The translations under genes were made by a program, and so were the position numbers. Source: a virus. From it: a stretch of 29,669 nt of DNA. Position 1 is the stretch's first letter, and every line of letters begins with the position of its first letter. Positions 1,810 through 27,642 of this stretch are shown here, in pieces. Below the pieces are notes generated by a model. It did no database searches. It was not told where the DNA came from and worked only from the letters and a program-made list of their open reading frames with translations. Where the stretch lies: IMG/VR virus record IMGVR_UViG_3300009314_000065, positions 1 through 29,669 of that record; one strand, given 5' to 3'.

Positions 1810-1838
1810 TTGACACGATAGCCTTAGATGGCTATACT
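1810..1838 (+). promoter_or_regulatory. Consensus sigma-70 promoter on the plus strand
   Basis: TTGACA at 1810-1815 and TATACT at 1833-1838 are separated by exactly 17 bases. The expected start of transcription is about 1845, some 24 bases before the ATG of the plus-strand ORF at 1869. The same hexamers, spacing and GC before the -10 element occur in the minus-strand promoter at 27614-27642. It points against the direction of all surrounding virion genes. Confidence 0.75.
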
Positions 1839-6017: not shown

Positions 6018-6769
6018 GATTTTCCTCCTATCATATTTTTAAAATATTGGCTCCAGTAGTCGCGATTGAAGTTAGTTTTGCAGTGGCAGCTATTACACAA
6101 CGATATTAAATTACTTAAATTTAAATTTTCCTTATTATAGTCGATGTGATGAATATGTAATTGTCTTTCGCATTCAAGCTGTGGCACTCCGCAGAGCTGG
6201 CACTTACAGTTGTCTCTGATTCTAATTTGCTTCCTGAGCTCTTTCCTCCATGTCAGAGGATATGGTTCAAAGGATTTGCCACCTCGCCAAGCTGGATTTT
6301 GTTCTCCGACTAATAAACCTTTAAGTTTTTCGCTTATTTTTTTACATGCTTTTTTTGAGCAATGCGCTTTAATCATTTTCCTACGATTTTCGTCTGATAT
6401 ACTATGATGTTTACCTCTTCTGGATTTGCTGCTTTTATCTATATGTTCTTGAGAAAGTTTGCGTCCTAAAAAATAATAGGGATTTGATCTACTTTTTACA
6501 TTCATCTTTCTTAATGCATACCAAATTGATGCTTGATGAACATTGAATAATTTAGCAATTTCATTCATTGACTTGCCAGATAAATATTTATTTGCAACAG
6601 ACTGAAAATTTAGTTTTCGATGATTCTGGCGAGGAACTTTATGCTTTTTTAATATATAAAAAATTAAACTAATAGCACAATGAAACTCTTTTGCGATTTC
6701 TGTCATGCTCCTACCTTGAAGATACAGATTCTTTATCTCCTCTTGAGGTAATTTCTTTTTTGCGCTCAT
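5993..6769 (-). CDS. HNH homing endonuclease with two helix-turn-helix repeats
   Basis: This is a 258-aa protein. Two N-terminal DNA-binding repeats are visible: IKNLYLQGRSMTEIAKEF (about 12-29) and VANKYLSGKSMNEIAKLFNV (about 57-76), each of the resolvase-like helix-turn-helix kind. A NUMOD3-like stretch follows (GRKLSQEHIDKSSKSRRGK). The C-terminal nuclease has CQLCGVP, then QLHIHHIDYNKENLN, then LCNSCHCKTN, which are the paired CxxC zinc knuckles and the HH...N core of HNH enzymes. ATG at 6769 has AGGAGGAGG upstream. It overlaps the next gene by 25 bases and likely was inserted at the junction between two virion genes. Confidence 0.85.
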   Translation of the reverse strand: MSAKKKLPQEEIKNLYLQGRSMTEIAKEFHCAISLIFYILKKHKVPRQNHRKLNFQSVANKYLSGKSMNEIAKLFNVHQASIWYALRKMNVKSRSNPYYFLGRKLSQEHIDKSSKSRRGKHHSISDENRRKMIKAHCSKKACKKISEKLKGLLVGEQNPAWRGGKSFEPYPLTWRKELRKQIRIRDNCKCQLCGVPQLECERQLHIHHIDYNKENLNLSNLISLCNSCHCKTNFNRDYWSQYFKNMIGGKSCQFLGIS

Positions 6770-8650: not shown

Positions 8651-9199
8651 CTAATTGCTCCCATCAAAAATTATATTTTTGGAATCTATCTTTTTTCCAG
8701 CCTCAAACTCGATGTGTGTTTTTTGATTCCTAAAAGCCATTAGATTCTGTGGCTTGTTGTTGTTTTTAATACCATTTATATGGTGTGCAACTTCCCATCG
8801 ATGCAAATAGCGACCTATCTGTTTTTCTACGATAAGACGGTGTTCGTAAACATAGCCAGATTTGTCAGCAAAAGGATGCTTAGGAACTAATCTGCGAATA
8901 TAACCCGAGCTATGTTTACGTATTCCCTTTGCAGAAAGAAGATGCTTGCCTTTTTTTGCTTTGCTTATCTTTTCTTTAGATATATCGGAATGGCATTTGC
9001 CATAAAAAGAATTGTTTTTCCCTTTCGAAGAACATGCTTTACATCTTTTTGCTTGATAAGCTATCTCTTTGCCACAATCAGGGCATTCAGGCTTGCCACC
9101 TTTCCACTGCGAGCTTTCCATTCCCATAAATCTATTTTTTAAACTGTCGCTAATTTTTTTCTTATGATATTCTGTTCGTGGGTAAATTCCTGTTGGCAT
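8651..9199 (-). CDS. HNH homing endonuclease with NUMOD3 motifs and zinc ribbon
   Basis: This is a 182-aa protein. The N-terminus (MPTGIYPRTEYHKKKIS) and SKEKISKAKKGKH are NUMOD3-like DNA-binding pieces. CPDCGKEIAYQAKRCKAC (about 39-56) is a zinc ribbon. The nuclease core is EHRLIVEKQIGRYLHR, then WEVAHHINGIKNNN and NLMAFRNQKTH, the HH...N...H arrangement of phage HNH enzymes. It is a paralogue of the endonuclease at 15991-16437 and shares 40 identical bases with it. It lies between a small fibre-tip gene and the GNAT-like gene, with only a few bases either side, as expected for an inserted free-standing homing gene. Confidence 0.85.
   Translation of the reverse strand: MPTGIYPRTEYHKKKISDSLKNRFMGMESSQWKGGKPECPDCGKEIAYQAKRCKACSSKGKNNSFYGKCHSDISKEKISKAKKGKHLLSAKGIRKHSSGYIRRLVPKHPFADKSGYVYEHRLIVEKQIGRYLHRWEVAHHINGIKNNNKPQNLMAFRNQKTHIEFEAGKKIDSKNIIFDGSN
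8797..8836 (-). repeat. 40-base exact repeat, copy 1 (inside HNH gene)
   Basis: The stretch is identical base for base to 16143-16182. It encodes the nuclease-core segment around LIVEKQIGRYLHR in both HNH genes. Identity at every third position indicates recent common ancestry or gene conversion. Confidence 0.85.
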
Positions 9200-12944: not shown

Positions 12945-14090
12945 TTACACCTCCACCATTTCGGTTATGTCTTTCTTCAATAAACCCTCAAATGCCTCTG
13001 CCCATAGATGTACTTTTTTGTCGGCGTTATGGTTCTCGTAGACGTTATCGTATGCCCTCTCTGCCAATCTCTTCCTTAGCCCCCTGGTTAGCCCCCTGGA
13101 CTCAATAAGCTCTACCATCTGGTTGTACCAGGCATTCTTCGTATTCTCGACCAGAACGCCATCTTGTCCGTTTGTGATTACTGGCGTATAAGGTGGAATA
13201 TTCGAGGCTATTGTGGGGATCCTCATAGCTGAGTATTCAAAGTATTTGATAGCCGACTTCTTCCTATTGAAATCTGTATCTGTAAGTGGGCATAACCCTA
13301 TGTCCAGGTTGAGACACGCCAGCTTGTACGGGTACGCAGCATGAGATACCCAAGAGTGCCATTCAAGTTGCGCTTGAGGTATATCCTTAAAAAGACCATG
13401 AAAGCGCACATCACCAAAGTACACAAACTTGACATTCTTGTATTGCTTGGCAATTCGTTTTATGACAGGCGCTACCATGAAGAGATCCTCGTAATGGCTA
13501 CCCCCGCCCTGCCATCCGATCCGGATCTCCTTTTTAACCATCTCAACTTTTGGAAAGATGCTAAAGTCTATAACATTCGGCAGTACAACGGTGTTCTTAT
13601 TGAGCTTCTTGAATGTCTCGGCCAAGAGTGGCGTGGTGGTAGATACCATGTCCACCTTCTTGAATGACGCCTTGAAATAGTTATGCCTGCTGATATTCTT
13701 CTCAATATGAAAGTTATCCTCGCCATCGCGCCAAAGAGGGATGACATCACCCTCTTCTGTCTCGCGGAATTGCTCCTCAGTGCCCCAGTATCTATAAGAC
13801 TCGTTCCAAGGGCTCACATTAAAGGGATCGTCATCGTAGTCAGCGACTATGAGCTTACCGTGCTTCCTGGCCGTTTTAATAAAGTTAAGCCATGCTGCAT
13901 CAGCCGGGCGCTGGAATACTATGATCTCGGATTCCATGATCTTCTGGTTGACAAACTCCAAATCCACCACATTATCCGGATGTATAGTCAGAATGTTCGC
14001 CTTCTCATGCTGGAGTAGCTTATAAAGCGGTTGTACGATCCGGTAATGGTTACATGCCCCACGATTACGTTCAAACCCCAGTATGCGCAT
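12945..14090 (-). CDS. GT-B glycosyltransferase (GT4-like)
   Basis: This is a 381-aa product; ATG 14090 was chosen because AGAGGAGG lies just upstream, whereas the longer ORF start ten codons earlier has no such site. The N-terminal Rossmann half begins MRILGFERNRGACNHYRI. The second half opens with EIRIGWQGGGSHYEDL and has KSAIKYFEYSAMRIPTIAS, the E-x7-type donor-binding motif of retaining GT-B enzymes, then NGQDGVLVENT. Expected activity is sugar transfer from a nucleotide sugar, with substrates unknown. The gene overlaps the kinase-fusion gene by 20 bases and is the last member of the carbohydrate cassette before the connector. Confidence 0.8.
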   Translation of the reverse strand: MRILGFERNRGACNHYRIVQPLYKLLQHEKANILTIHPDNVVDLEFVNQKIMESEIIVFQRPADAAWLNFIKTARKHGKLIVADYDDDPFNVSPWNESYRYWGTEEQFRETEEGDVIPLWRDGEDNFHIEKNISRHNYFKASFKKVDMVSTTTPLLAETFKKLNKNTVVLPNVIDFSIFPKVEMVKKEIRIGWQGGGSHYEDLFMVAPVIKRIAKQYKNVKFVYFGDVRFHGLFKDIPQAQLEWHSWVSHAAYPYKLACLNLDIGLCPLTDTDFNRKKSAIKYFEYSAMRIPTIASNIPPYTPVITNGQDGVLVENTKNAWYNQMVELIESRGLTRGLRKRLAERAYDNVYENHNADKKVHLWAEAFEGLLKKDITEMVEV

Positions 14091-15093
14091 ATTGTTCTGC
14101 CTCCTCTGCTTGGTATTCAAACTCCTTAATTACCTTTTTCATGCTAAAGTTGTCATCCCATCCCCAGCTTGCCTTATAAGGTTCACCCAGGCACATTGGC
14201 GGCCTATCTGGGGGATCATCCTTGAGGCGTGCCCAGCCAAAGTCGATCAGCTTTATTACGCCATCCTTGACCATAAGGTTGTTAGGAGTTATGTCTCTGT
14301 GCTCTACGGCATGAGCGCGTAGATCCTGAATTATCTCGACGAGCTGTTTTCTCCAGTCCGGAGGTAACTTTTGAGCCGTTACCATCTCACCACAGTCCTC
14401 AATTTCAAGATGCTCCATCTTGCAATCTTGATGATTGAACTTTACTTGCGGGAAATGCCTGGAGCTGCACTTTGACAGGATCCTACACTCATTCTCGATA
14501 AGGCTATAATCAGAATAGGCCGTTTGCTTCTTTATGACCTTGCCGTTCTTCCTTTCAACAGTAGACGTCGCACCTTTGAAATATTGATTGAAGCGACCCA
14601 CCGTAGGATCCACTGGCTCCACCCAGCCCACGCCTGAGTCCTTTAGGGCGCTTAGGAGATCTTCGATGGAGGCATCCCCAAGCCAGCGCTTGTAGTCATC
14701 GGAGACATAGTTCTTGTGATGTACCGCATGATACCCCAGCGCTATCAGGAAAAGCTCCTTTGCTGGTATATAAAACCCTTTCGGTGTCTCCTGGCGTGTC
14801 TCAAGGATTGCTTCCTGGAAGGCTCTCGGATAATAGCGATCACCTATGGAGCGCACATCTACATAAATATAGGTCTTGCCGATGGGTAGCTTGAACTGCA
14901 CACGCGGGGAGGGATATGTCCGCGTGGCATTGGGGAAGATCTCCGTCCAATGGTCTAAGCTATAGACCAGGAGGTCGAGGTCGGAGTGCTCTCCCAACTG
15001 AACCCCGTCCGGCAGGTTTTCCCAGTTGCGTAACACGACATACGGAAAATCCACGTCATTCATAAATTGAAAGAATTGCTTTAGACTCTGCAT
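14071..15093 (-). CDS. Nucleotidyltransferase-kinase fusion protein
   Basis: This is a 340-aa protein. Residues ~15-85 look like a nucleotidyltransferase-fold domain: YVVLRNWENLPDG, GEHSDLDLLV with the metal-binding pair D38/D40, and IYVDV with a third acid near D79. Residues ~185-290 look like a small protein- or lipopolysaccharide-kinase-like domain: VIKKQT (possible ATP lysine), EHRDITPNNLMV (HRD 265-267, N271) and IKLIDFGWA (DFG 284-286). The HRD, N and DFG motifs are all intact, so the kinase half could be active. A sugar, lipid or protein could be the acceptor. Neighbouring glycosyltransferases favour a role in glycan or lipopolysaccharide chemistry. AAAGGG precedes the ATG. Confidence 0.7.
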   Translation of the reverse strand: MQSLKQFFQFMNDVDFPYVVLRNWENLPDGVQLGEHSDLDLLVYSLDHWTEIFPNATRTYPSPRVQFKLPIGKTYIYVDVRSIGDRYYPRAFQEAILETRQETPKGFYIPAKELFLIALGYHAVHHKNYVSDDYKRWLGDASIEDLLSALKDSGVGWVEPVDPTVGRFNQYFKGATSTVERKNGKVIKKQTAYSDYSLIENECRILSKCSSRHFPQVKFNHQDCKMEHLEIEDCGEMVTAQKLPPDWRKQLVEIIQDLRAHAVEHRDITPNNLMVKDGVIKLIDFGWARLKDDPPDRPPMCLGEPYKASWGWDDNFSMKKVIKEFEYQAEEAEQYAHTGV

Positions 15094-15101
15094 GGTGCCC
15101 T

Positions 15102-15293
15102 TTATTTTTTGTTTTCGTCGAGCTTATGATCTCCACACCAATCATTAGGGAATACGACCGGATAACCATTCATAGTAGGAGCATGGCGCCGGCAGCGTCC
15201 CAGTTTTGTCTCTCCCTTTTCATTCTTTTTTGCCACATACCACATGCACGTCGAGCAACTCATACCTTTACTGCGATGTACCCAGGGATCCAT
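15102..15293 (-). CDS. Small four-cysteine zinc-binding-like protein
   Basis: This is a 63-aa protein with CSTCMWY (13-19 region), GRCRRHAP and WCGDH: four cysteines plus histidines in a C-x2-C...C...C-x2-H pattern that suggests a metal site. GGAGG lies 5 bases before ATG 15293, inside the end of the previous gene (26-base overlap). Small proteins of this pattern are common in phages; I know no function. Confidence 0.6.
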   Translation of the reverse strand: MDPWVHRSKGMSCSTCMWYVAKKNEKGETKLGRCRRHAPTMNGYPVVFPNDWCGDHKLDENKK

Positions 15294-15459
15294 GTTTTCC
15301 TCCTTTTTCTATTCTGCAACGCATAACACCTATCGCAAATTTAAGACGTTTCCAAAAGCTCGCGTTTGCAAGGATCTCTTTAAGCAGGCGCTCCGTGTTT
15401 TTGCGTGCTTCCTGCCTGGCTTCCTTCTTCATCTTTCTTGCCAGCTTCTTGTATTTCAC
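15268..15459 (-). CDS. Small basic helical protein with GTG start
   Basis: This is a 63-aa protein. The start is GTG at 15459, with AGGAG 8 bases upstream. It is very basic and helical (KYKKLARKMKKEARQEARKN), followed by an amphipathic segment (ASFWKRLKFAIGVMRCRI). It overlaps the WbqC-like gene by 80 bases and the next gene by 26. The dense overlaps are typical of real phage genes; nucleic-acid or membrane binding is possible. Confidence 0.5.
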   Translation of the reverse strand: MKYKKLARKMKKEARQEARKNTERLLKEILANASFWKRLKFAIGVMRCRIEKGGKHGSLGTSQ

Positions 15460-15994
15460 TCTTTTTAACTCCTGCGTTAAGTATGTTCGTAGTTTTCTCT
15501 ATACCGAACTCGTTAAACATCTCAAAAACGCTCTTTCTGTGGTTGCTCTTAAAAGGCACAAACTTAATACCGTTTTCCTCAAGCGCTTTGAGATCCAAAT
15601 AGCGCTCCGGCGCCTTATGGTCTGCCAGGTACTCATCGGCCTCGTAGAACTTCAAGATCTCGATCAGCCGGGCTGTGGACTTAGCATCTGTCTGAGGAGG
15701 AGGTTCAAACCGAATCTTGGCCGGGTTTACCCCCAACGTCTTTGCAATCGCGACAATCCAGCCCAGATTGACATCAACCAAATTCTGCCCATCCGCGTAA
15801 TATTTGTCCAAGATCGCAGTCATGCCATGCCGAATAGGCTTAGTCCACCACTTGCCATTGACTTGACATCGGTTTGTAAATCCATTTTTTTCGTATTGGC
15901 AATCCACTAAAAGAATAAACAAATCACATTGTGCCATTTTTTCGAAGAAACAAAACCAAGGTATAAAATTTGGTTGGTGAATAGCAACCCTCAT
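15380..15994 (-). CDS. WbqC-like family protein
   Basis: This is a 204-aa protein. The start (MRVAIHQPNFIPWFCFFEKM, then CDLFILLVDCQYEKNGFTNR) matches the hallmark of the WbqC family: the VAIHQPN-x-x-PW signature followed by an F-x-KM-x-x-D-x-F block. WbqC-like proteins are found in O-antigen and amino-sugar biosynthesis loci, with a role in nucleotide-sugar or glycolipid modification that is not settled. Length is a little short against the usual ~220-240. The C-terminal 35 residues are charged and low-complexity. Its ATG overlaps the HNH gene's TGA (ATGA), which implies coupled translation. Confidence 0.8.
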   Translation of the reverse strand: MRVAIHQPNFIPWFCFFEKMAQCDLFILLVDCQYEKNGFTNRCQVNGKWWTKPIRHGMTAILDKYYADGQNLVDVNLGWIVAIAKTLGVNPAKIRFEPPPQTDAKSTARLIEILKFYEADEYLADHKAPERYLDLKALEENGIKFVPFKSNHRKSVFEMFNEFGIEKTTNILNAGVKKSEIQEAGKKDEEGSQAGSTQKHGAPA

Positions 15995-16437
15995 GTCTTT
16001 CCTCTCCCGTCAAAAACTATATCTGTTAATCTTGTTCTTTTGCCTGCTTCAAATTTACGATGAATCGATTGGTTTTTGAACGCCATAAGATTGTGAGGGC
16101 GATTATCGTTGGTAACTTTATTGATATGATGACATACCTCAAATCGATGCAAATAGCGACCTATCTGTTTTTCTACGATAAGGCGATGCTCACGTACATA
16201 ACCGTCTCGGTTATGAGGATGATTTCGTTTAAGGATTAAAATATATCCATCTTTATCCTTGATTTCGCCATTCTTATAGTGGGGTGAAGTTTCTCCCAAT
16301 AAATGTACTCCATAAAAATGATTATTCTTTCCAGTCATATCTGGTCTCTTTTTTCCTTGTAGCTTCTTTCCTATGTCAGGTCTTTTTTTACCAGCCCAAT
16401 ATCCCGGCTTCGTGCGCTCGTAAACTCCTTTAGGCAT
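15991..16437 (-). CDS. HNH homing endonuclease (paralogue)
   Basis: This is a 148-aa protein. The N-terminus PKGVYERTKPGYWAGKKRP and GKNNHFYG are NUMOD3-like. The core is EHRLIVEKQIGRYLHR, EVCHHINKVTNDN and NLMAFKNQSIH, the same HH...N...H layout as the gene at 8651-9199, but without that gene's zinc ribbon. It starts at TAATG overlapping the acyltransferase stop, with AGGAGGAAAAG upstream, and ends in ATGA overlapping the WbqC-like start. It therefore sits within the glycan operon without breaking either neighbour. Confidence 0.85.
   Translation of the reverse strand: MPKGVYERTKPGYWAGKKRPDIGKKLQGKKRPDMTGKNNHFYGVHLLGETSPHYKNGEIKDKDGYILILKRNHPHNRDGYVREHRLIVEKQIGRYLHRFEVCHHINKVTNDNRPHNLMAFKNQSIHRKFEAGKRTRLTDIVFDGRGKT
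16143..16182 (-). repeat. 40-base exact repeat, copy 2 (inside HNH gene)
   Basis: Identical to 8797-8836. The surrounding code diverges quickly on both sides, so the identity is confined to the nuclease core. Confidence 0.85.
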
Positions 16438-16919
16438 TATCTTTTCCTCCTAAACTTGGCCGGATTGCCACACCAGACCTCATTTTCGCCAATATCGTGC
16501 GTTACAACGCTACCAGCGCCTATTAGAGCCCCTTTCTTTATCCGAACACCGGGAAGTATGGTACTTCCGGCACCAATAGCCACGTCATCCTCTATTACAG
16601 TGTGTTTCCAGTTTGGTTTCCCGCTTGGCGGATACTTGTCATTTGTAAAGGTAACTCGCGGAGCAATAAAACAGTTGCTCCCGATGCTCACACATTCCGG
16701 AATAAAACAGTGCGCCCCGATCCGGTTATAATCCCCTATCTCAACACCATCCCCTATCTCGGTGTAGGATCCTATGGAGTTACACCTACCGATCCTGGCA
16801 GTCGGGTATATGTTTGTGAAATACCAGATCTGGTTACAAGCCCGCAGGGATAACCTGGCTTTTAAGGTCTTTATTAAGAGCCAGTATTTCCCGAAGATGT
16901 TTTCCCACAAATTGTTCAT
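16437..16919 (-). CDS. Left-handed beta-helix acyltransferase
   Basis: This is a 160-aa protein. Hexapeptide repeats run from about residue 38 to 140: ARIGRCNSIG, TEIGDGVEIGDYNRIG, VSIGSNCFIAP, VAIGAGSTILPG, GALIGAGSVVTHDI, ending in WCGNPAKF. FTNDKYPP in the inserted loop resembles the UDP-amino-sugar N-acetyltransferases of the WlbB/WbpD group. Expected role is acetylation of an amino group on a nucleotide-linked sugar, in trimers. The first ~35 residues are unrelated (NLWENIFGKYWLLIK). It overlaps the dehydrogenase-like gene by 86 bases. Substrate is a guess; transfer-fold assignment is firm. Confidence 0.85.
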   Translation of the reverse strand: MNNLWENIFGKYWLLIKTLKARLSLRACNQIWYFTNIYPTARIGRCNSIGSYTEIGDGVEIGDYNRIGAHCFIPECVSIGSNCFIAPRVTFTNDKYPPSGKPNWKHTVIEDDVAIGAGSTILPGVRIKKGALIGAGSVVTHDIGENEVWCGNPAKFRRKR

Positions 16920-17607
16920 TCATGATCTCCATTGCTGGGAGCACGCAGTGCCCGCCAATCGCTCCCTTTGGAGGATCCAGTACCATCTGCATATGGTCTG
17001 TGCCCTCCATCTCTTTGACCGTTTTGTTAAGCGTACGGAGGTACGTCTTGAGGTCGTTGTACTTAACCCCCATGAGGTCGCAACAGGTCTGGGCGTACCT
17101 GGCAAATTCTATATTCATGCCATATTGCACCAAACTCAGGAGTTTCAGGAGCTCCGTCGTCGTAGTGGATGCAAAGAATCCGAATCTCAAACCTGTCCTG
17201 TTCAAATAGTTCTTTACCGTAACCCAGTCCTTGCAGTCATCAAAGCCTATGAATAACTTATAGTTCGCAATGCACTCCGCCATGTGTCTGTGTGTCCCCA
17301 GGATCGGGACATGTACGATATGCGAGCGGATCGTCCCATTCCAGAGCGACGTCCTCAGCTTATTGGTTGTCCCCACGGGGCAGGTTGTATGGATCATTAC
17401 CAGCTCTGGATCATAGTCGTTCATATACTCAAGTGTTTTAGTATGGAACGTGGTACTGTAAGGATAACAGACGTGCATGACATCGACCTTATATGGTGTC
17501 TCTCCCTCTACGTCTTTGGTATCTATGCCAGGATAATATTTATTGAATACTTTATAGACGGCTCTGCCAATCTCACCCATTCCTATAACGATAACCTTCA
17601 GTCCCAT
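16834..17607 (-). CDS. UDP-sugar dehydrogenase-like protein, shortened
   Basis: This is a 257-aa protein. VIVIGMGEIGRAVYKVF is an NAD-binding GxGxxG Rossmann motif. IHTTCPVGTTNKL and TTTTELLKLLSLVQYGMNIEF follow the middle region of UDP-glucose / UDP-ManNAc dehydrogenases, and GAIGGHCVLPAM contains the GGHC motif with the catalytic cysteine. Family members are usually ~420 aa; the entire C-terminal UDP-binding domain is missing here. It may have changed substrate, use a partner for the missing domain, or be non-oxidising. GGAAGGGG precedes the ATG. It overlaps the GT2 gene by 10 bases. Confidence 0.7.
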   Translation of the reverse strand: MGLKVIVIGMGEIGRAVYKVFNKYYPGIDTKDVEGETPYKVDVMHVCYPYSTTFHTKTLEYMNDYDPELVMIHTTCPVGTTNKLRTSLWNGTIRSHIVHVPILGTHRHMAECIANYKLFIGFDDCKDWVTVKNYLNRTGLRFGFFASTTTTELLKLLSLVQYGMNIEFARYAQTCCDLMGVKYNDLKTYLRTLNKTVKEMEGTDHMQMVLDPPKGAIGGHCVLPAMEIMNEQFVGKHLREILALNKDLKSQVIPAGL

Positions 17608-18347
17608 TTAATACCCCTTCCTACTTCAGCGTAATATTGTCGATGATTTTCTGTCTTTATATGATCCGGATGAAGCCCTGACCAGTGCCCTATATCCTGA
17701 GCCATGATTGTCGGCACCCATCCTATTATCGGATCCTTCTCGATCTTAATCTGCTCCATAAGATTAGCGCCGCCCTTGATACCCACCAAGTTGTAGCGCT
17801 CAAACTCCAGATCAGAAATGAGATCAGCATACATAAGCCATAGCCCTACAATGTGCGTGGCCGGAAGAAAACCCCAGCCTTCCTTGTCCGGGAGCCCAAA
17901 GCGCCTGGCCGGACGCGACGGTACATAGTCAGGTGAGAGTACCTGAGCCGGAGAATTAGCGAAGATCTTGAGCATATTATTAAGCCAGTTTCGAGGCATA
18001 CGCACATCATTACCTATGATCCCGATCATGTCTAACCTGAGTGCCTCAGACTTCTCAAATGACCTTACCCAGTCAAAGAAGTCTATGACTGTCCGTCTCA
18101 AGCCTTGATTCAAGCGATTCAGAATCGTGTATTTCATGCCGTACTTCCCCCCGGATCCCAGCTTACAGTCCCTCAAAAACTGTATTGTCCCATCATGAGA
18201 AGCGTCATCTACCATTACGAAAGTTACGTCCCTGTAATCTTGTGCCTGCTCAAGAGCGTGGACGCACTGTTTCGTATATTCGATTCTCTTGTAACAGGGT
18301 AGCAGTATCGCTATTTTTAAGTTTTCTATCGGCTTCTTTGAACGCAC
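17598..18347 (-). CDS. GT-A glycosyltransferase (GT2-like)
   Basis: This is a 249-aa protein. LKIAILLPCYKRIEYTKQCV starts the nucleotide-binding fold, FVMVDDASHDGTIQFL is the GT2 motif, and GIIGNDVRMP supplies the acidic metal-binding site. HIVGLWLMYADL and GIKGGANL fall in the acceptor half. Start is GTG 18347 behind GAGGTGG, inside the previous gene (98-base overlap). It probably transfers a sugar in the same pathway as the other cassette enzymes. Confidence 0.8.
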   Translation of the reverse strand: MRSKKPIENLKIAILLPCYKRIEYTKQCVHALEQAQDYRDVTFVMVDDASHDGTIQFLRDCKLGSGGKYGMKYTILNRLNQGLRRTVIDFFDWVRSFEKSEALRLDMIGIIGNDVRMPRNWLNNMLKIFANSPAQVLSPDYVPSRPARRFGLPDKEGWGFLPATHIVGLWLMYADLISDLEFERYNLVGIKGGANLMEQIKIEKDPIIGWVPTIMAQDIGHWSGLHPDHIKTENHRQYYAEVGRGIKWD

Positions 18348-18768
18348 TCGATACCACCTCGTAATCGTCTATGCTTAGTTCGATCCTGAGATCTCTGATC
18401 TTCAAGTGTATATAGTATTGATCCCTTATGTCGGCACCCTCAGAGAAGATCTTGTCTTTGTTGAAATTGTAGAGGTTCCGGTTTAGGTTGATCTGTACGT
18501 TGTCGTTTACCGGATCCATAGCAACCTTCTTACGGCAGAGCTCGATATGCTGTCCCGGCTTGGCCTCAGGGGATCCCCGCTGCTGCCAGCGCTGGAAAGC
18601 AGCAATCATGCCCCTGGCAAACTCCATGAAATCGCCTCTTGATAAACTGATCCTCAGATTGCGATAATGGACGTGCATCTTCTCGCAGACCTCGACCACC
18701 AGCCTGTTGTTGAATACCGACTTCTCGGAGATTTCCTTACCCGCTAATTTTTTCAGTGTTTGTCCCAT
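18250..18768 (-). CDS. Unknown protein with duplicated H-x-R-x-LRI motif
   Basis: This is a 172-aa protein. Two copies of one motif are visible: HVHYRNLRISLSRGDFMEF (about 32-50) and YIHLKIRDLRIELSIDDYEV (about 119-138), i.e. [VI]H-x-x-x-R-x-LRI-x-LS-x-x-D-[FY]. This suggests a tandem domain duplication. Between them lies a polar linker with two cysteines or so. GGGAG precedes ATG 18768. I do not recognise a family; similar sequences seem to accompany polysaccharide genes, so a glycan role is plausible. Confidence 0.55.
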   Translation of the reverse strand: MGQTLKKLAGKEISEKSVFNNRLVVEVCEKMHVHYRNLRISLSRGDFMEFARGMIAAFQRWQQRGSPEAKPGQHIELCRKKVAMDPVNDNVQINLNRNLYNFNKDKIFSEGADIRDQYYIHLKIRDLRIELSIDDYEVVSSAFKEADRKLKNSDTATLLQENRIYETVRPRS

Positions 18769-18802
18769 GCTTACTCCCGATACTATCCATCACCCATTTT
18801 CC

Positions 18803-18976
18803 TTATGCTATTTTGTATTTGGCTATGATCCTATCGTAGATGTCCTTATACCTTACAGCGTTGACATCCGTGTTGCCCCACTTTCCAGTTGTCGCATCAG
18901 CAAACCCTCTGACAACTGCCCAAAGCAAAAACTTGGGAGGCAGTTTCCATACAATAAACATGATAAACTTTTCCAT
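18803..18976 (-). CDS. Small protein with hydrophobic N-terminus
   Basis: This is a 57-aa protein starting MEKFIMFIVWKLPPKFLLWA, a possible membrane-associated helix, followed by a polar tail (ATTGKWGNTDVNAVRYK, DIYDRIIAKYKIA). GAGGAGG lies 5-6 bases before ATG 18976, an excellent ribosome site. It fills the gap between two hypothetical genes. Function unknown. Confidence 0.6.
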   Translation of the reverse strand: MEKFIMFIVWKLPPKFLLWAVVRGFADATTGKWGNTDVNAVRYKDIYDRIIAKYKIA

Positions 18977-18985
18977 CGTTCCTCC

Positions 18986-19507
18986 TCACTTCATGTTGAT
19001 AAGCTCTTTTACGCCCTGGTAGTGCACTATGACCTTATTTAAGAGCCCTTGCGGATCGTCCCCGCGCATAATGCCCTTCATGAATGAGCGCCAGATCTTC
19101 TCGTTCTTCTCAGCCCAAAACTCGCGATATACCATGTTAGTCATAAACATATAGAGCTCACGCGGTATGTCGTAGTCCACCATCATCGTCTTGTTGTTTG
19201 ACCAACCCTTCTCATTCCCCATAGCCCTGAGCTCTTTACGCTTGAGCCAGTTGACTCTTCTTGTCTCTTGGCATAGCTTGGGAAAGTTATGGAGCTTGGA
19301 CTGTACAAATTTATCCGCGACCCGGCGTATAAATAGCTCTGTATTCTGTAATGGGCTCTCAGAGTGAGTCTTTAAGACCTCCTGGACTGCGTGAGTACGG
19401 ATGTCCTCATCCGAGGTGTTCTGCTTCCTATACGCCTCTTCGCCCGCAACCTTCTTCGTTGCTGACAGCCCCTCATCCCGTTTAAACTTGGTATCGGCTT
19501 TATTCAT
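18986..19507 (-). CDS. Hypothetical protein of the glycan cassette
   Basis: This is a 173-aa, charged, mostly helical protein (DEDIRTHAVQEVLKTHSES, RREFWAEKNEK-like segments). The ATG overlaps the methyltransferase stop (ATGA). No membrane segment, cysteine cluster or catalytic motif is apparent. It is transcribed with the capsid gene upstream and glycan genes downstream, so it could belong to either module. Confidence 0.55.
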   Translation of the reverse strand: MNKADTKFKRDEGLSATKKVAGEEAYRKQNTSDEDIRTHAVQEVLKTHSESPLQNTELFIRRVADKFVQSKLHNFPKLCQETRRVNWLKRKELRAMGNEKGWSNNKTMMVDYDIPRELYMFMTNMVYREFWAEKNEKIWRSFMKGIMRGDDPQGLLNKVIVHYQGVKELINMK

Positions 19508-20061
19508 CGTCTCACGCCTTTACAGAAAAACCACTCCGGGTAATACCTGAGATTCAGGCATATATCTACTTTCAAAAGATTGAAGTACCTATTTAAGATG
19601 TCGGTCTGCAACGGGAAGGCTCTGATGTGCCCCTCGCACATGAAGCGCGGTACACTGAATATGACTGTGGCGCCCTGTTTTATATTATTTATGACTGCAA
19701 AATCGTTCTTGATATGCTCCAGGACTTCGAGCAATATCGCCACATTGTAGTCGTGTTTATAGCACTTGGGATCCAGCGCATCCCCTACAAAGAAATGCTG
19801 AGGAGTGAGCTTAGTCGCGATAGCAACAGCCTCTCGTGAGAAGTCGAATCCATGATAATTCCGTACCCCTTTGTCGTATAGGTAGTGCCCCATTTGTCCG
19901 GCGCCAGAACCGATCTCAAGGACTTTGGGCTCTTCGATGGCTTTAACGTGTTTAACGACATGCTGCATGATCCGGTAGAACGGGAGCGTCCGGTAGTGCG
20001 CATGATATATCGCCTCCTTCTTATAGACCTCATCATAATCTTTTGCTATCAGTGTTTTCAT
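19504..20061 (-). CDS. SAM-dependent methyltransferase
   Basis: This is a 185-aa product from ATG 20061. VLEIGSGAGQMGHYLYDKG (motif I, SAM-binding glycines), YHGFDFSREAVAIA (acidic motif II), FVGDALDP and VAILLEVLEHIKND (motif IV/post-I region) identify a class I methyltransferase. The longer open frame to 20166 would run back through the hairpin into the capsid gene, so I prefer the internal start. There is no strong ribosome site at 20061. It opens the carbohydrate cassette after the capsid gene, and probably methylates a sugar or glycolipid. Confidence 0.8.
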   Translation of the reverse strand: MKTLIAKDYDEVYKKEAIYHAHYRTLPFYRIMQHVVKHVKAIEEPKVLEIGSGAGQMGHYLYDKGVRNYHGFDFSREAVAIATKLTPQHFFVGDALDPKCYKHDYNVAILLEVLEHIKNDFAVINNIKQGATVIFSVPRFMCEGHIRAFPLQTDILNRYFNLLKVDICLNLRYYPEWFFCKGVRR

Positions 20062-20073
20062 ATGAAAGGGGTG

Positions 20074-20094
20074 GGAGGGGTGGTTAGCCCCTCC
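20074..20094 (-). terminator. GC-rich hairpin after the capsid gene
   Basis: GGAGGGG (20074-20080) and CCCCTCC (20088-20094) form a perfect 7-bp stem with a 7-base loop, 17 bases after the capsid stop. On the mRNA it is followed by CACCCCTTTC with only a short U tract. It could reduce transcription into the glycan cassette or protect the abundant capsid mRNA. Confidence 0.5.
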
Positions 20095-20110
20095 GTTCCC
20101 GTCCTTTCGG

Positions 20111-21037
20111 TTAGCTGATAGCTCCAGAGCTATCCAACTGTGCCTGCTCAGCGTGTGCCTTCTCATTACCGAATTGTAGAGTCATCTCGCCCTCTACCCA
20201 GCCCTTGACCGAAGATGCGGTCGGCGCACCCTTGTAACTCTGGATGTCGCGCAACACTGCGACCTTGATCTGTTCTGGCGTGGTAATGGCTAAACGGGCA
20301 ACTGGTATGTGCCTGTTCGGTATAATATCAACAGTACCAAAGGCACCTTCGTACTTGTTGATATTGGCAATCGCTTGCCTGGTCGAGGCTTCGATGTTGA
20401 AGGTGAAGCCTGTTTTTGCGGAGAAATTCTTAGAGATTACTCTCTTCTGGTAGCCTCCGCAAATGAGCGCCCTGGGATCTCCCCCGGCGTCCCAGACCTC
20501 CTGGAGCCTGGCATTGACAATATCCTCAGTGAGCTGGGAAATAGCTGCACCTGAGGCACCGTCCGTACCGAGTCCGGTGTTGGTCTTGATGGCCTTCAGC
20601 AAGCCCATCGCTGTACGAGCCGTGTTCGATGCACCAACCGCTGTGGTTCCGGTATTGACAAATATCTTCTCAAAGTCTGTGCCGAGCTCTTTGAGCGCCT
20701 TCATCAGTTCCCTTGCCACATCGTCCTTGATACCTGCTGTGGTTACTGCCATCTGGGTGAATGACACATCCCAATTCCTAAGACGGATATGCGTGTAGTT
20801 CATCCGCCTCGTCCTGACGGCTCTGGCTGAATACGATAATGCTGCGCCTTCCACGATGCCAGTTGTTGCAGCACTGGCGAGGTTATCAACCTGCCATTCG
20901 TGCTTCGTGGAAATCGACTTGATCTTCCTGCTCATGGACAACAATGGCGTGTCGTCCGCAAAAAGATCGGCTACTACGTTAGTGAGACCTTCTCGGTTCC
21001 CTATGGTTACATAGGTATCGAGATAGGTGTTTGCCAT
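20111..21037 (-). CDS. Major capsid protein (SU10/DUF5309-like)
   Basis: This is a 308-aa protein. GNREGLTNVVADLFADDTPLL, then SISTKHEWQVDNL and EGAALS, follow the N-terminal pattern of the DUF5309 / SU10-type HK97-fold capsid proteins. The middle (ARELMKALKELGTDFEKIFV) is the long spine helix, and SQLTEDIVNARLQEVWDAGG with PRALICGGYQKRVIS fits the P domain. AAAGGAG precedes the ATG. It directly follows the scaffold-like gene by 18 bases, the classic head-gene order. Confidence 0.85.
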   Translation of the reverse strand: MANTYLDTYVTIGNREGLTNVVADLFADDTPLLSMSRKIKSISTKHEWQVDNLASAATTGIVEGAALSYSARAVRTRRMNYTHIRLRNWDVSFTQMAVTTAGIKDDVARELMKALKELGTDFEKIFVNTGTTAVGASNTARTAMGLLKAIKTNTGLGTDGASGAAISQLTEDIVNARLQEVWDAGGDPRALICGGYQKRVISKNFSAKTGFTFNIEASTRQAIANINKYEGAFGTVDIIPNRHIPVARLAITTPEQIKVAVLRDIQSYKGAPTASSVKGWVEGEMTLQFGNEKAHAEQAQLDSSGAIS

Positions 21038-22592: not shown

Positions 22593-22935
22593 ATTCTGCG
22601 CTCCTTCGCTTATGCTCTACGAACTCGGCTATTGTATCGCTCATATGATTCCTCATATCAGCCATGCCCTCCATCCGGGCTGAGACCAATTCTTTCTCAT
22701 ACTTGGACTTGAAACACCCGGCCATGATCGTGTACTTCCAGTGGATAAAGGCGCGGATGACCATATTAAACGGCATGGGATGACAAAGCATGTGCATCCC
22801 GTAACTATCTCGCCAGGTAACACCATAGCCGGGCGGAACAGGTGCTCCCTCAGGGAGTAGGATCCCGATGACCATCTTCCCATTCAGAATCTCAGTCAGA
22901 CTCTTCTTTCTTGGCTTCTTTTTCGTCAGGTGCAT
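22582..22935 (-). CDS. Hypothetical protein overlapping the portal gene
   Basis: This is a 117-aa product from ATG 22935, chosen because GGAGG lies directly upstream; an ATG four codons earlier is less well placed. KKKPRKKSLTEILNGKMVIG starts it, with GYGVTWRDSYGMHMLCHPM and a helical C-terminus (MEGMADMRNHMSDTIAEFVE). The first 44 bases overlap the portal gene's 3' end. Function unknown. Confidence 0.55.
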   Translation of the reverse strand: MHLTKKKPRKKSLTEILNGKMVIGILLPEGAPVPPGYGVTWRDSYGMHMLCHPMPFNMVIRAFIHWKYTIMAGCFKSKYEKELVSARMEGMADMRNHMSDTIAEFVEHKRRSAEYEA

Positions 22936-24910
22936 ACTTCCTCCCATGTATTCTTGCTATGATCTCTTCTTTGTAGAGATCAAGGAAAGTATCGATCTGC
23001 TTAAGCTCTATGCCCTCAGCGACCGCAGCCTCCTTCATGTCATTCATGAGCTTCTTCTGGTACTCACCGATCATCTTCTTCTCTTTATCGGTATAAAGGA
23101 GCCTCTGCCCAGCCTTAGGATCATAGTCATCCAGGAACATCCTCTTGAGCTCGGCCTGCTTGACATCCGGATCCCCGGTGAATGTCCTGAGAAGGTTCCA
23201 TGACTTCGTTGCCCTCAAGACCGGATTCGTGTTATCCAACCTGCCGTTCGGCACGATATTCCACTTCCCTTGGATCTCGCGCCTCTTGACCTTGACAGGT
23301 TTTCTGCCTGTCATCAGCATTTCCTCTTCCTCATCACCGTACTGCTCATACAAAGCATCGATCTGATAATAGACCTTCGCCATCTGGACTTGGAATACAG
23401 CAAGGTCAAACTCTTCATTGAGCCCTAAGTCCTGGGCTGTGTCCACGATCTCAGCCTTAGTCTTTTTACCCCCTCTGCCCATGCCCGGCAGGTTCATGTC
23501 CATTGACTGCTTAGCGCTTATGGACTTAACCCGGTTATCAGACCAGCTCTTTAAGTACTGCGCGAACTGGAAGAGTAGGGGCTGTGAGATATTCCCCATC
23601 TGCCTGATCTGGTAGTCATCCGGAGAGCCCTGGGTCTCAACTGTCTCCCCTGGGATGTAGCGTCTGCTTTTGATGTTCGTAACTGTATTGCGCCTCATGA
23701 CCACAACAGGCTTATTCGTGATCGTGCCGTTGTCCTCAGCCTGGTTGATCGCTGTAGATATACCTATCTGGTAATCCTCCTCCAACTGTGGAATCCCGCG
23801 CGACGCGTATAGGTGCATGTCAATAAGTTCACGCCTGACGTCTGCATACGGAAAGAGGCCGTGATCGTAAGGCACTTCGATAAACCTCAGGACATCCTGC
23901 GGGGTATTGACCGGGTATGTGGCAATGCAGCGCTCCTTGATACCGTCATCATTGACGTCATACCAGCAGCAGGTCTCGCTAAGATCTATGATCTCATCCA
24001 CCTCTTCGCCCGAAGGCACCCCCTTCTTCTCCTTTGTACCCCAGGCCGCTATCTCGTTATCGGTATATTTTTGATACTTCTCATCCCGCATGGCCAACTT
24101 GATCTGCGTGAAGGTGCGGGAGAATGGGTTAGCAATAAACCTTGCCCACTGGAGGTCAGTAGTATCCCAGGGAATCACAAGATCATCCTTGAGGTCGCAG
24201 GCCACAACATCAGCCTTGTTATTCTCGATCTCAATGAGCTTGAGATCAAACTTGGTCTTGCCTTCCCGAAACTTCCCGACTGCCTTCTCGCACTCCTCGA
24301 TATTCTCCTCAAAGGAGTCATCAACCGAGAACTCCTCCAAGATGATCCTCAAGAGCATATCATCCGTTGTCCTGGGGTCTGTCAGAGCTTCTATTGTTTT
24401 CTGGTCATAATCATCCAGATCAAACTCCTCGGTATAGTTCCGGGTGGAGTAATCCCATACTGTCTTAAACACGACTCCGCCGCGCTGGAGACACTTGTCT
24501 ATACCAATGAGGTATTGAGGCACGAAGTTCATCTTTTTCCTGACTCTCCAGTCAAAGAGCTGCTCGCGCTTACGAGCTGGGGCTATATCTTCTCCACCAT
24601 AGGGATCAAACGTACATATAGGCGAGGCTTTGATAAGACTTGCGTAGGAAGGCTTGAGTTCGGTGATCTTGGAATCAATGACCGGAATTGAGTAATTCGC
24701 TGCATTTTCCCAAGGTGAGGTCTTAGGTGTTGTACGGATCCCATGTCTTAAATTATGCCACCTGTCTTGGTTGTAGTCCCAGCGCTGACGGTTCCCTCTC
24801 TCGGTCTCTACATCCTTTGACAGGTTCGATACAAAGTTGCGTATCTCATCGGTGATTTCAAGCGCGTTAACCTCTTGTAGCCCCTCAGGGTGAGTAGTCT
24901 TTCTCGGCAT
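22892..24910 (-). CDS. Portal protein (P22-like)
   Basis: This is a 672-aa protein. The N-terminal pattern WDYNQDRWHNLRHG, SPWENAANYSIPVIDSKITE, SYASLIKASPICTFDPYG fits large P22-type portals. The centre has LVIPWDTTDLQWARFIANPF and IEVPYDHGLFPYADVRREL, the clip/wing region, and the C-terminal half is helical with EEDYQIGISTAINQAEDN (crown/stem side). The charged tail (KEAKKEESD) is usual. GGAGG lies just upstream. It follows the terminase and two small cysteine-rich genes, consistent with head gene order. Confidence 0.85.
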   Translation of the reverse strand: MPRKTTHPEGLQEVNALEITDEIRNFVSNLSKDVETERGNRQRWDYNQDRWHNLRHGIRTTPKTSPWENAANYSIPVIDSKITELKPSYASLIKASPICTFDPYGGEDIAPARKREQLFDWRVRKKMNFVPQYLIGIDKCLQRGGVVFKTVWDYSTRNYTEEFDLDDYDQKTIEALTDPRTTDDMLLRIILEEFSVDDSFEENIEECEKAVGKFREGKTKFDLKLIEIENNKADVVACDLKDDLVIPWDTTDLQWARFIANPFSRTFTQIKLAMRDEKYQKYTDNEIAAWGTKEKKGVPSGEEVDEIIDLSETCCWYDVNDDGIKERCIATYPVNTPQDVLRFIEVPYDHGLFPYADVRRELIDMHLYASRGIPQLEEDYQIGISTAINQAEDNGTITNKPVVVMRRNTVTNIKSRRYIPGETVETQGSPDDYQIRQMGNISQPLLFQFAQYLKSWSDNRVKSISAKQSMDMNLPGMGRGGKKTKAEIVDTAQDLGLNEEFDLAVFQVQMAKVYYQIDALYEQYGDEEEEMLMTGRKPVKVKRREIQGKWNIVPNGRLDNTNPVLRATKSWNLLRTFTGDPDVKQAELKRMFLDDYDPKAGQRLLYTDKEKKMIGEYQKKLMNDMKEAAVAEGIELKQIDTFLDLYKEEIIARIHGRKYAPDEKEAKKEESD

Positions 24911-25087: not shown

Positions 25088-25221
25088 GACGCCTCTCCTT
25101 CTCTGACAGGCTTTTTCTCGACAAATTGGCTAAACTTATAGCACGTCCTGCACTTCTTGTCCCGGTTCGCACAGCTCCTGATGCAAAAGCTCTGATGATT
25201 CGTTCTCGACTTGTAGCTCAT
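25084..25221 (-). CDS. Tiny cysteine-rich protein after terminase
   Basis: This is a 45-aa protein: SFCIRSCANRDKKCRTCYKF carries four cysteines as C-x3-C...C-x2-C, a likely zinc site. The ATG overlaps the terminase TGA (TGATG), and the end overlaps the next gene by 4 bases, so it depends on coupled translation. No family recognised. Confidence 0.55.
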   Translation of the reverse strand: MSYKSRTNHQSFCIRSCANRDKKCRTCYKFSQFVEKKPVREGEAS

Positions 25222-26753
25222 CAATACCCCGTCGCAACTGGCTCAGGAGCAATCTCACCGGACTCAGTGATAGGTATGCCTTGCCCCTGGCGATCTACTC
25301 CCACTTCTCTCTCAATCTCTGGCTTCTCATAGTTCTGCAAGAAACCCCACTGCAACATAATCCAGGCATCCCCTCTATTTGGGGATCTACCCAGCCTGTC
25401 CTTAATATCGTCCTTGTCCTCGATGGCCACCCTGCCCCTATTATTCTCGAAATACTGGGGCTCTCCGAGATCGTCCTTGAGCTCTTCATCCTCCGGGATA
25501 GAGGCCAAGCCTTGCTTAGCAGCCTCTGCGACCTCAAAGTGAGCCTTAGCCCTGAGGTTCTCATACTGCGGCCGATCCCTCATCTTCGGGTCGAGTTCCT
25601 TCTCTTTAGCGGAGCCATGATACTTAATGACAAGATACTTTTTGGATTCCTCGCGCCGCATAATCTCCTGCCATGTACCTATGCCAACACCATCACAGTC
25701 AACCATGATAAAGGCTGCATTAAGCTCATCAGCCATATTGAGTGCATCGATCGCATTGAGCCCTGGCGCCTGATTGCGTTTGACTATCATCTTGGAGACA
25801 TTGCCGTTCTTGCCACCCATAATCACGTTGTCATCAATGCCTTCCCCGGCCGAGTCAACAGAGACACCCACATTGTTTTTGAAAGAAACAACTGGACGCT
25901 TCATTTGCTCAAGGATCTCAGGCGGGAAGAGTGTATTGATAGACTTCTTCGGGATCTGGCCGCGCACCCTGCCATCCCAGCGGGGATCATCCTCGCCCCA
26001 CTTCGTGCGCATAGCCTCAACCCACTCGTATGAGGCCAAGCCAGGGATAATGGTCTTTCTGTGCTTATAGTTCGGGTTGTCCCGGCAGTCAAAGTTGAAT
26101 ACGATGTTATCTGTCTTGTTGCGCAACCCCTTTGCGAATCGCCCAGTTGCCCTGGTGGGGTTGCCTATGAATATGACAAGGGTATTCTCGGATGTCGTGA
26201 TACCATCGATCTGATCGTAGATTGTATCTTCAACGGCCTGTGCCTCTGAGACTATGACGCAGACATTCGGAGCATGAAAGCCTTGAAACTTGCCCCCTTC
26301 GGCCTCTTTGGAGGCGCCTGTCTCCTTTGTCGTGAACCCGAGCAGATACCAGTCCTCTGGCCGGATCTCAATATACGGCTGCCTGTAAGCTGTACCACCG
26401 AAAGCGGGGTCTCTCCTATGCCAATGGCCTAAGGTCTCACCCCACATGATTTTCTTGACCTGGCGGTCGGTGGGGGCTGTCTCAACCACGATAGAGGGCT
26501 TGAAACAGTCCAAGAACCATAACGCAATACCAGCGCACATATAGTCCTTGCCTAAGGAGTGCCCGGATCCTATGTAGATATGCTTACGCTCTTTCATGGC
26601 GCGCGGAAGGGCAGACAATAGCTCATCCTGGAGCTTCCAGATCTTCTCAACCTGGAGCACGTCCCTCATGTAGATCTGAGGGTGTTCGCGCCAGCTATTC
26701 AACAACGAGTAGGCTTTCGCGGACTCTATTTGCGGGCTTACTGCCGTTTCCAT
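25221..26753 (-). CDS. terL: Terminase large subunit
   Basis: This is a 510-aa product from ATG 26753, with GGAG 10 bases upstream; a TTG three codons earlier is also possible. The ATPase half has IGSGHSLGKDYM at about 61-72, a Walker A variant with aspartate after GK, VCVIVSEAQAVED at about 164-176 (Walker B with S-E instead of D-E) and IFIGNPT (motif III). The nuclease half has GVSVDSAGEG, IMVDCDGVGIG and GDAWIMLQW, supplying the acidic RNase-H-fold residues. It cuts and pumps concatemeric DNA into the prohead through the portal. It overlaps the small-subunit gene by 59 bases. Confidence 0.9.
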   Translation of the reverse strand: METAVSPQIESAKAYSLLNSWREHPQIYMRDVLQVEKIWKLQDELLSALPRAMKERKHIYIGSGHSLGKDYMCAGIALWFLDCFKPSIVVETAPTDRQVKKIMWGETLGHWHRRDPAFGGTAYRQPYIEIRPEDWYLLGFTTKETGASKEAEGGKFQGFHAPNVCVIVSEAQAVEDTIYDQIDGITTSENTLVIFIGNPTRATGRFAKGLRNKTDNIVFNFDCRDNPNYKHRKTIIPGLASYEWVEAMRTKWGEDDPRWDGRVRGQIPKKSINTLFPPEILEQMKRPVVSFKNNVGVSVDSAGEGIDDNVIMGGKNGNVSKMIVKRNQAPGLNAIDALNMADELNAAFIMVDCDGVGIGTWQEIMRREESKKYLVIKYHGSAKEKELDPKMRDRPQYENLRAKAHFEVAEAAKQGLASIPEDEELKDDLGEPQYFENNRGRVAIEDKDDIKDRLGRSPNRGDAWIMLQWGFLQNYEKPEIEREVGVDRQGQGIPITESGEIAPEPVATGY

Positions 26754-27285
26754 CCTTCTCAATCTCCTTCTTGTGCTCCTCAGCCTTAGTGTGTAGTTGA
26801 TTGACTATGTTGATATTGGCATTAACCGAGATCTGCTGAGCTGTGGTCTTTTTACCTTCAAGCTCCTCTTGTGCCTTATCAAGCGAGGAGATCGCTGCTC
26901 CCAGCTTCGTCTCATAGATCCTATCGCCGAACGGAGTCCTGCTCTTTAGCTGGGGTGTCATTGCCTTCTTGTATATAGTCTCATAACGCAACATACGGAT
27001 CGCCTGATGAGTTATGGGGACGCGCATGATATTATCGAGTAGCCTTCTCTGGAGGTATCGGATGATTGATCTCCAGCGCGTTCTCTTAGAGAATTGATGG
27101 GCAGACTGGCGGGAATATGTGCCAACTTCCGGGTAGTATTTCAAGACAAGATCGGCCACTTCTTGAGGAGTTCGCATTTCTGCAAACCACATGCACATAC
27201 GCAGATAGCGCTCTCTGGCAGCTCTCTTCTCAGTAGATCTATCCTTCGCAGGGTAATTCATCTGGGGTGTTCTTGTCAGTTCCAT
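26695..27285 (-). CDS. terS: Terminase small subunit-like DNA-binding protein
   Basis: This is a 196-aa protein. TPQEVADLVLKYYPEVGTYS, then RQSAHQFSKRTRWRSIIRYL, reads as an N-terminal helix-turn-helix for packaging-site recognition. The middle is helical (KAMTPQLKSRTPF, GAAISSLDKAQEELEGKK) and the C-terminus is charged. Position directly before the large subunit, with overlap, supports the call. GGGGAG precedes the ATG. The family itself is not recognised with certainty, so the name rests mainly on synteny. Confidence 0.65.
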   Translation of the reverse strand: MELTRTPQMNYPAKDRSTEKRAARERYLRMCMWFAEMRTPQEVADLVLKYYPEVGTYSRQSAHQFSKRTRWRSIIRYLQRRLLDNIMRVPITHQAIRMLRYETIYKKAMTPQLKSRTPFGDRIYETKLGAAISSLDKAQEELEGKKTTAQQISVNANINIVNQLHTKAEEHKKEIEKDGNGSKPANRVRESLLVVE

Positions 27286-27484
27286 GTAAAGGCTCCCCGG
27301 TTAGCGGCGTCATTCTAAGCTCAAATAGACATTCTTTGAATTGCGCGAATGATTTTAGCAGGTTCGCAAGCTGCGTGGCATCAAGGGTAACTGTCATAGT
27401 AGATTGTCCCTGACCGTCAACGCCAATGCACTTGCGGTTTTGATCGAAGCTACCGATTATGACTATCTCTTCATTCTCACTCAT
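27239..27484 (-). CDS. Small hypothetical protein, first gene of the packaging operon
   Basis: This is an 81-aa protein: beta-rich N-terminus (NEEIVIIGSFDQNRKCIG), GQGQSTMTVTLDATQLANLL and a helical patch. It is the first gene after the leader region. ATG 27484 follows a T run with no proper ribosome site; a seven-codon mini-ORF (MLNCSFL) ends in ATGA overlapping it, which could couple translation. It overlaps the small-terminase gene by 47 bases. Function unknown. Confidence 0.5.
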   Translation of the reverse strand: MSENEEIVIIGSFDQNRKCIGVDGQGQSTMTVTLDATQLANLLKSFAQFKECLFELRMTPLTGEPLHGTDKNTPDELPCEG

Positions 27485-27531
27485 AAAAAAGAGCAGTTCA
27501 ACATCCTATCAATATCGGACATCAAACTGCT
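27485..27531 (-). terminator. Second terminator-like hairpin, just before the first packaging gene
   Basis: On the mRNA AGCAGTT (from 27531 to 27525) pairs with AACTGCT (27498 to 27492), a 7-bp stem with a long 26-base loop, then C and six U before the ATG at 27484. The large loop makes it weaker than the upstream hairpin. Confidence 0.35.
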
Positions 27532-27547
27532 TCGTTAGACTTCGTTA
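27530..27547 (-). repeat. Tandem 8-bp repeat in the leader
   Basis: TAACGAAG occurs twice, at 27540-27547 and 27530-27537, exactly 10 bases apart (one helical turn). It lies between the two terminator-like hairpins and could be a regulator or antitermination site. Confidence 0.4.
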
Positions 27548-27602
27548 AAATAAAAAAAGACAAGCCGTGTAAACAGTGTCAGACATCGTTTTGCACAACT
27601 TG
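27547..27602 (-). terminator. Intrinsic terminator-like hairpin directly after the late promoter
   Basis: CAAGUUGUG (from 27602 down to 27594) pairs with CACGGCUUG (27569 down to 27561): nine pairs including two G-U. After one mismatch, three more A-U pairs extend it. The 3' arm is followed at once by UC, seven U, A and four U. This is the shape of a rho-independent terminator. It begins about five bases after the predicted start of transcription from 27614-27642, so it acts on the leader of the packaging operon. Confidence 0.6.
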
Positions 27603-27613
27603 CCTATGTTTAA

Positions 27614-27642
27614 AGTATAGCTTCTATTTTGCGGTCTGTCAA
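27614..27642 (-). promoter_or_regulatory. Consensus sigma-70 promoter for the packaging/head operon
   Basis: On the minus strand TTGACA (27642-27637) and TATACT (27619-27614) are 17 bases apart. An A/T-rich stretch (27643-27658) upstream could be an UP element. Expected transcription start is near 27607. It lies in the only long non-coding gap on this strand, ahead of the terminase genes. Confidence 0.8.

Follow-up and report, generated by a model that had tools for sequence, protein, structure and literature searches.

The window analyzed here, a 29,669-nucleotide stretch of DNA, covers most of one uncultivated tailed phage, for which a 39.8-kb record also exists (L002/L010). On its minus strand, a promoter and two predicted terminators precede a series of co-directional late genes. 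In the order of transcription, the features are as follows.

27637-27642, minus strand: -35 element, TTGACA, kept in relatives by position and sequence
27614-27619, minus strand: -10 element, TATACT, with a 17-nt spacer to the -35 element
27607, minus strand: predicted transcription start, the 7th base past the -10 element by sigma-70 spacing rules
27558-27605, minus strand: terminator hairpin T1, folded as a 12-bp lower stem and an upper stem of 5+3 pairs, -18.3 kcal/mol
27546-27557, minus strand: U-rich run after T1, where a predicted RNA of ~57 nt would end
27530-27547, minus strand: direct repeats, two copies of TAACGAAG, between T1 and T2
27492-27531, minus strand: terminator hairpin T2, folded as 15 uninterrupted pairs, -18.6 kcal/mol
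27485-27490, minus strand: U-run of T2, TTTTTT, directly abutting the ATG at 27484; predicted end of a second RNA of ~120 nt
27239-27484, minus strand: first late gene, 81 aa
26695-27285, minus strand: probable small terminase subunit (terS), 196 aa, from a weak DUF2280 match and its position before terL
25221-26762, minus strand: large terminase subunit (terL; PHROG 2, E = 4e-20)
22892-24910, minus strand: portal protein (PHROG 1216, E = 2.5e-16)
20111-21037, minus strand: major capsid protein (PHROG 1328, E = 1.3e-67)

Homologues of the 81-aa gene directly follow the leader terminator in three relatives (L066, L084, and L085). Therefore, we conclude from this comparison that the 81-aa gene is real. 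Searches of Pfam, PHROGs, and cultured phages gave no match to its product, and its predicted structure (pLDDT 62) was too poor for a fold search. A small conserved family with the pattern xxGSLNPxRKCIxIDGxGxxxI (window 27239-27484, minus strand) occupies the first position of the late operon in several relatives. Inside the late genes, the sense strand had no strong compact terminator comparable to T1 or T2. Between the capsid and tail genes is a block of the sugar/surface-modification type (12945-20166, minus strand), with two glycosyltransferases, a WbqC-like protein, a hexapeptide acyltransferase, a kinase-like protein, and a methyltransferase. The late region is also interrupted by three free-standing HNH-type (homing-like) genes (5993-6769, 8651-9199, and 15991-16437, minus strand); two have Pfam support, and the third was assigned by sequence appearance alone. 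Outside the window, the same phage encodes an acyl carrier protein (PF00550, E = 7e-13; L029 3640-3909, minus strand), which is unusual in a phage.

The promoter TTGACA-17-TATACT (27642-27614) is of the sigma-70 type, matches the consensus at 11 of 12 positions, and scored highest among the sigma-70 sites on either strand of the 14.7 kb scanned. It stands in front of the late operon, with two predicted intrinsic terminators between it and the first late gene, and both of these are features by which a Q-type leader is recognized. A second TTGACA-17-TATACT promoter is found at the opposite end of the window, on the other strand and antisense to the late genes (1810-1838, plus strand).

T1 lies 9 nt past the -10 element and T2 lies 83 nt past it. 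A preliminary description of this DNA had placed a hairpin and U-run about 5 bases after the start; they are indeed present, with T1 beginning 2-3 nt downstream (at ~+3) and spanning +3 to +50. It had also reported two repeats at 10-base spacing, which are the TAACGAAG copies at 27540-27547 and 27530-27537, 10 nt apart. Its coordinates and leader elements were correct on re-reading, with one exception. The second hairpin had been called weaker, but T2 has 15 uninterrupted pairs, six T's, and a folding energy of -18.6 kcal/mol, versus 12 + 5 + 3 pairs and -18.3 kcal/mol for T1. Neither stem is weak (both about -18.5 kcal/mol). The entire leader RNA (27607-27485) has a folding energy of -38.1 kcal/mol, compared with -23.3 +/- 3.3 kcal/mol for its dinucleotide shuffles (z = -4.5; 0 of 200). 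For a shuffled window, only 0.003 cases per strand are expected of a promoter that matches at least 11 of 12 positions and precedes a hairpin (-13 kcal/mol or better) with a U-run.

We gathered relatives with terminase, portal, and capsid profiles. Cultured phages provided only distant terminase or capsid relatives, and a search for prophage relatives in genomes gave just two matches, one of them a MAG scaffold labelled 'viral' in its isolate name, so that no host emerged. The whole plan recurs in L066. It has the same hexamers and nearly the same spacing, its hairpins begin 8 and 84 nt past the -10 element, a U-run lies directly against an ATG, and a homologous small gene follows that overlaps terS. 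Its tandem terminators have folding energies of -24 and -22 kcal/mol. In nine other relatives, the terminase genes are preceded by a promoter and then by a terminator or a pair of them (L003, L012, L081, L085, L084, L092, L113, L023, and L090), and five have the same layout with weaker promoters (L070, L080, L082, L073, and L088). Tandem terminators are also present in L081 and L070. In 13 relatives, the leader folded better than its shuffles (z = -2.5 to -7.7). Some of the promoter-terminator pairs among relatives are weak hits (L069 and L077). The preliminary description had made its reading depend on finding the hairpin in related phages; the hairpin recurs in many of them but is missing in L208, L016, L007, and L008. 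Because these four have a promoter without a terminator, the comparison indicates that promoter-terminator control is common in the family and not universal.

We also scanned 103 loci uniformly, including that of the window's phage, covering up to 1.5 kb upstream of terL (146 kb). There were 17 promoter-then-terminator pairs, in 14 of the 103 loci, compared with 0.85 expected from the remainder of the same contigs (same strand, 5 pairs) and from the other strand (6 pairs). This is an approximately 20-fold enrichment. Intergenic regions are by nature rich in promoters and terminators, so we tested the order of the two elements separately. Twelve loci had only promoter-then-terminator pairs and one had only the reverse (p = 0.003); at other thresholds, the counts were 14:2 and 7:0.

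The order bears on a simpler explanation, in which the terminators insulate the late operon from upstream transcription and a fixed small leak from a constitutive promoter feeds the terminase genes, with no antiterminator. In its favor, terminators are a natural way to separate the late operon from the genes upstream, in some relatives no terminator follows the promoter, and our antiterminator searches (below) found no match. However, an insulator is expected upstream of the promoter, and the 12:1 order is the reverse of that arrangement. Also, tandem terminators of about -18 kcal/mol, or -24 and -22 kcal/mol in L066, would let very little transcript through to the whole head and tail operon. 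We consider this explanation unlikely. Instead, the order and its recurrence in relatives argue that the purpose of the arrangement is to terminate the promoter's own transcript.

What recurs across relatives is restricted to the promoter, the stem, and the U-run, concentrated just before terminase. Conservation did not extend to the hairpin sequences, to the small open reading frames within the hairpins, or to the TAACGAAG repeats. Because hairpin sequences differ between phages, selection appears to act on the form of the terminator and not on the sequence of the RNA. This pattern makes it extremely unlikely that the locus is a small RNA gene, encoding a functional RNA of ~57 or ~120 nt unrelated to late control. 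Exactly such RNAs are the predicted early products, but their sequences are unrelated between relatives, while promoter, stem, and U-run are kept in front of terminase.

Attenuation by RNA alone would be another use for such a leader, through a riboswitch, a leader peptide, or a put-like RNA of the HK022 type. Each hairpin contains a 13-codon ATG open reading frame (MSDTVYTACLFLF and MSDIDRMLNCSFL), and the second ends in ATGA at the start of the next gene. However, hairpin T1 begins at ~+3, so there is no upstream RNA that could form an alternative antiterminator fold, as a riboswitch-type attenuator would need. Leader peptides inside the hairpins were rejected because L066 shares this architecture but lacks the open reading frames. 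An Rfam search with the leader also gave no match above chance. We regard control by RNA alone as very unlikely.

The TAACGAAG repeats were not found near other leaders. We considered them as a conserved operator and rejected this: 18 contigs contain the pattern, but only in this phage does it accompany a promoter and terminators arranged in this way. We also rejected a loop common to T1 and T2. The two hairpins have a 9-nt block in common in the window (GATGTCTGA/GATGTCCGA), which is not significant (p = 0.13), and in L066 (GTCGGAAAC, p = 0.011), but there is none in L081 or L070.

Such a block could be a recognition site if release depended on an RNA site, as with lambda N, or the terminators could be overcome by a general RNA polymerase modifier, such as P7 of phage Xp10. 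In either case no promoter-loaded factor would be involved, which agrees with the lack of a conserved promoter-spacer element. Even so, the block likeness is not significant in the window and does not extend to L081 and L070, and a fixed RNA-binding site is unlikely because the hairpin sequences vary freely. Also, if polymerases arriving from upstream were already modified, a promoter immediately before the terminators would be superfluous. Release of either kind is, in our judgment, decidedly unlikely.

With RNA-only, small-RNA, and fixed RNA-site readings all unlikely, a protein that makes polymerase resistant to termination is the remaining simple reading. Q families are mutually nonhomologous, and sequence similarity is often lacking among antitermination factors of this kind. 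No Q-family gene (PF03589, PF06530, or PF06323) was found in the window, in this phage's 39.8-kb record, or in 18 related contigs; the PF06323 control was silent, which makes this a weak negative. Pfam scans of the upstream proteins had no Q-family match either. This excludes only known sequence families, because the Q families lack homology to one another and the record may be incomplete. The predicted structure of a 110-aa upstream protein (pLDDT 51) was too poor for a fold search. In several relatives, a weakly conserved small protein family is encoded 5-984 nt upstream of the late promoter and is a possible candidate regulator (L090 5065-5316, L091 4846-5175, L080 910-1221, L084 1634-1900, and L007 1018-1302). 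The small upstream families common to these five had no detectable homologue in the window.

The promoters themselves were also searched. There was no shared factor-binding motif (QBE/ABE) in the promoter spacers of 20 aligned leaders, and each known factor has its own site. In the spacer and initial transcript together, only the -35 and -10 elements recurred. The candidate for a -10-like pause element in the window, AAACAT at -4 to +2, is weak (3 of 6 matches) and could be due to chance in AT-rich DNA.

On balance, we favor the reading that this is a leader for late-gene control, with a constitutive promoter, two terminators, and protein-mediated read-through loaded at or near the promoter. 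The sigma-70 promoter would be continuously active and produce short RNAs of ~57 and ~120 nt, because T1 (+3 to +50) and T2 (against the first gene) are predicted to release RNA polymerase. Transcripts coming from upstream genes should be halted by T1 and T2 as well. Late in infection, a phage protein would engage polymerase at or near the promoter, before ~+50, presumably in a Q-like manner, and make it resistant to termination. The resistant polymerase could then pass T1 and T2 and transcribe the small gene, terS, terL, and the portal, capsid, and tail genes. The locus is therefore read as probably a late-gene switch of the lambda-Q-like kind, by analogy. The preliminary description had proposed a late-gene switch, and this part is well supported by the promoter-then-terminator order that recurs before terminase and by the same spacing in L066, whereas release by Q is an analogy only.

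More tentatively, these phages might represent a lineage of uncultivated tailed phages with ultrashort late leaders, often with a doubled hairpin within a few bases of the start, that are released by an antiterminator family unrelated to Q, AlpA, GafZ, or P7. How termination and antitermination near a promoter control late genes has been studied in detail in a few cultured systems. The present sequences allow such control to be read, against a defined set of relatives, in phages known solely through metagenomics, and the main new fact is that the architecture recurs from one uncultivated phage to another. If our reading is true, then L002, L003, L012, L066, L081, L084, L085, L113, and others are a search space for new antitermination factors. 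The same set would also provide minimal leaders of natural origin in which to test how early a factor has to be loaded.

The leader can be compared with four known systems. In lambda pR'-tR'/Q, as here, a sigma-70 promoter is followed by an intrinsic terminator with all of the late genes beyond it, and the same detector, run on lambda as a control, recovered both promoter and terminator. However, lambda tR' is single and starts 141 nt past the -10 element, whereas T1 starts at 9 nt and is in tandem with T2. The Q gene is directly upstream of pR', whereas the window's phage has no Q homologue that we found, and lysis genes come first in lambda, unlike the small gene and terminase here. The specific proposal of a pR'-tR' unit released by Q is an analogy: our searches recovered no Q-family gene and no shared Q-binding element, and the leader is far shorter (9 versus 141 nt). 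The model for the phage 21 Q (21Q) leader is also promoter-embedded loading and then a terminator (PMC6606751). 21Q requires a direct repeat, TGAGCA, between the -35 and -10 elements and a -10-like pause element (PMC6606751), but neither is clearly present here, and the TAACGAAG repeats are downstream of T1. In the AlpA/PalpB-tB system of Pseudomonas aeruginosa, a promoter and a downstream intrinsic terminator are bypassed by a promoter-loading protein (PMC9371919). AlpA differs in controlling host lysis genes, and the promoter spacer here lacks its binding element, GGGACG. No sequence homology links AlpA to 21Q (PMC9371919), so such factors can be unrecognizable by sequence. In the Caulobacter gene transfer agent, GafZ acts together with IHF and an activator, GafY, and the mapped terminator is after the first gene instead of in the leader (PMC11150451). 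Like the factor proposed here, GafZ serves the promoter of a phage-like structural cluster, as an antiterminator bound between the -35 and -10 elements (PMC11150451). By analogy, our leader probably works like a Q leader; membership in a Q system cannot be assigned. A promoter of its own, placed immediately ahead of the terminators, is consistent with a factor that is loaded there, as Q, AlpA, and GafZ are.
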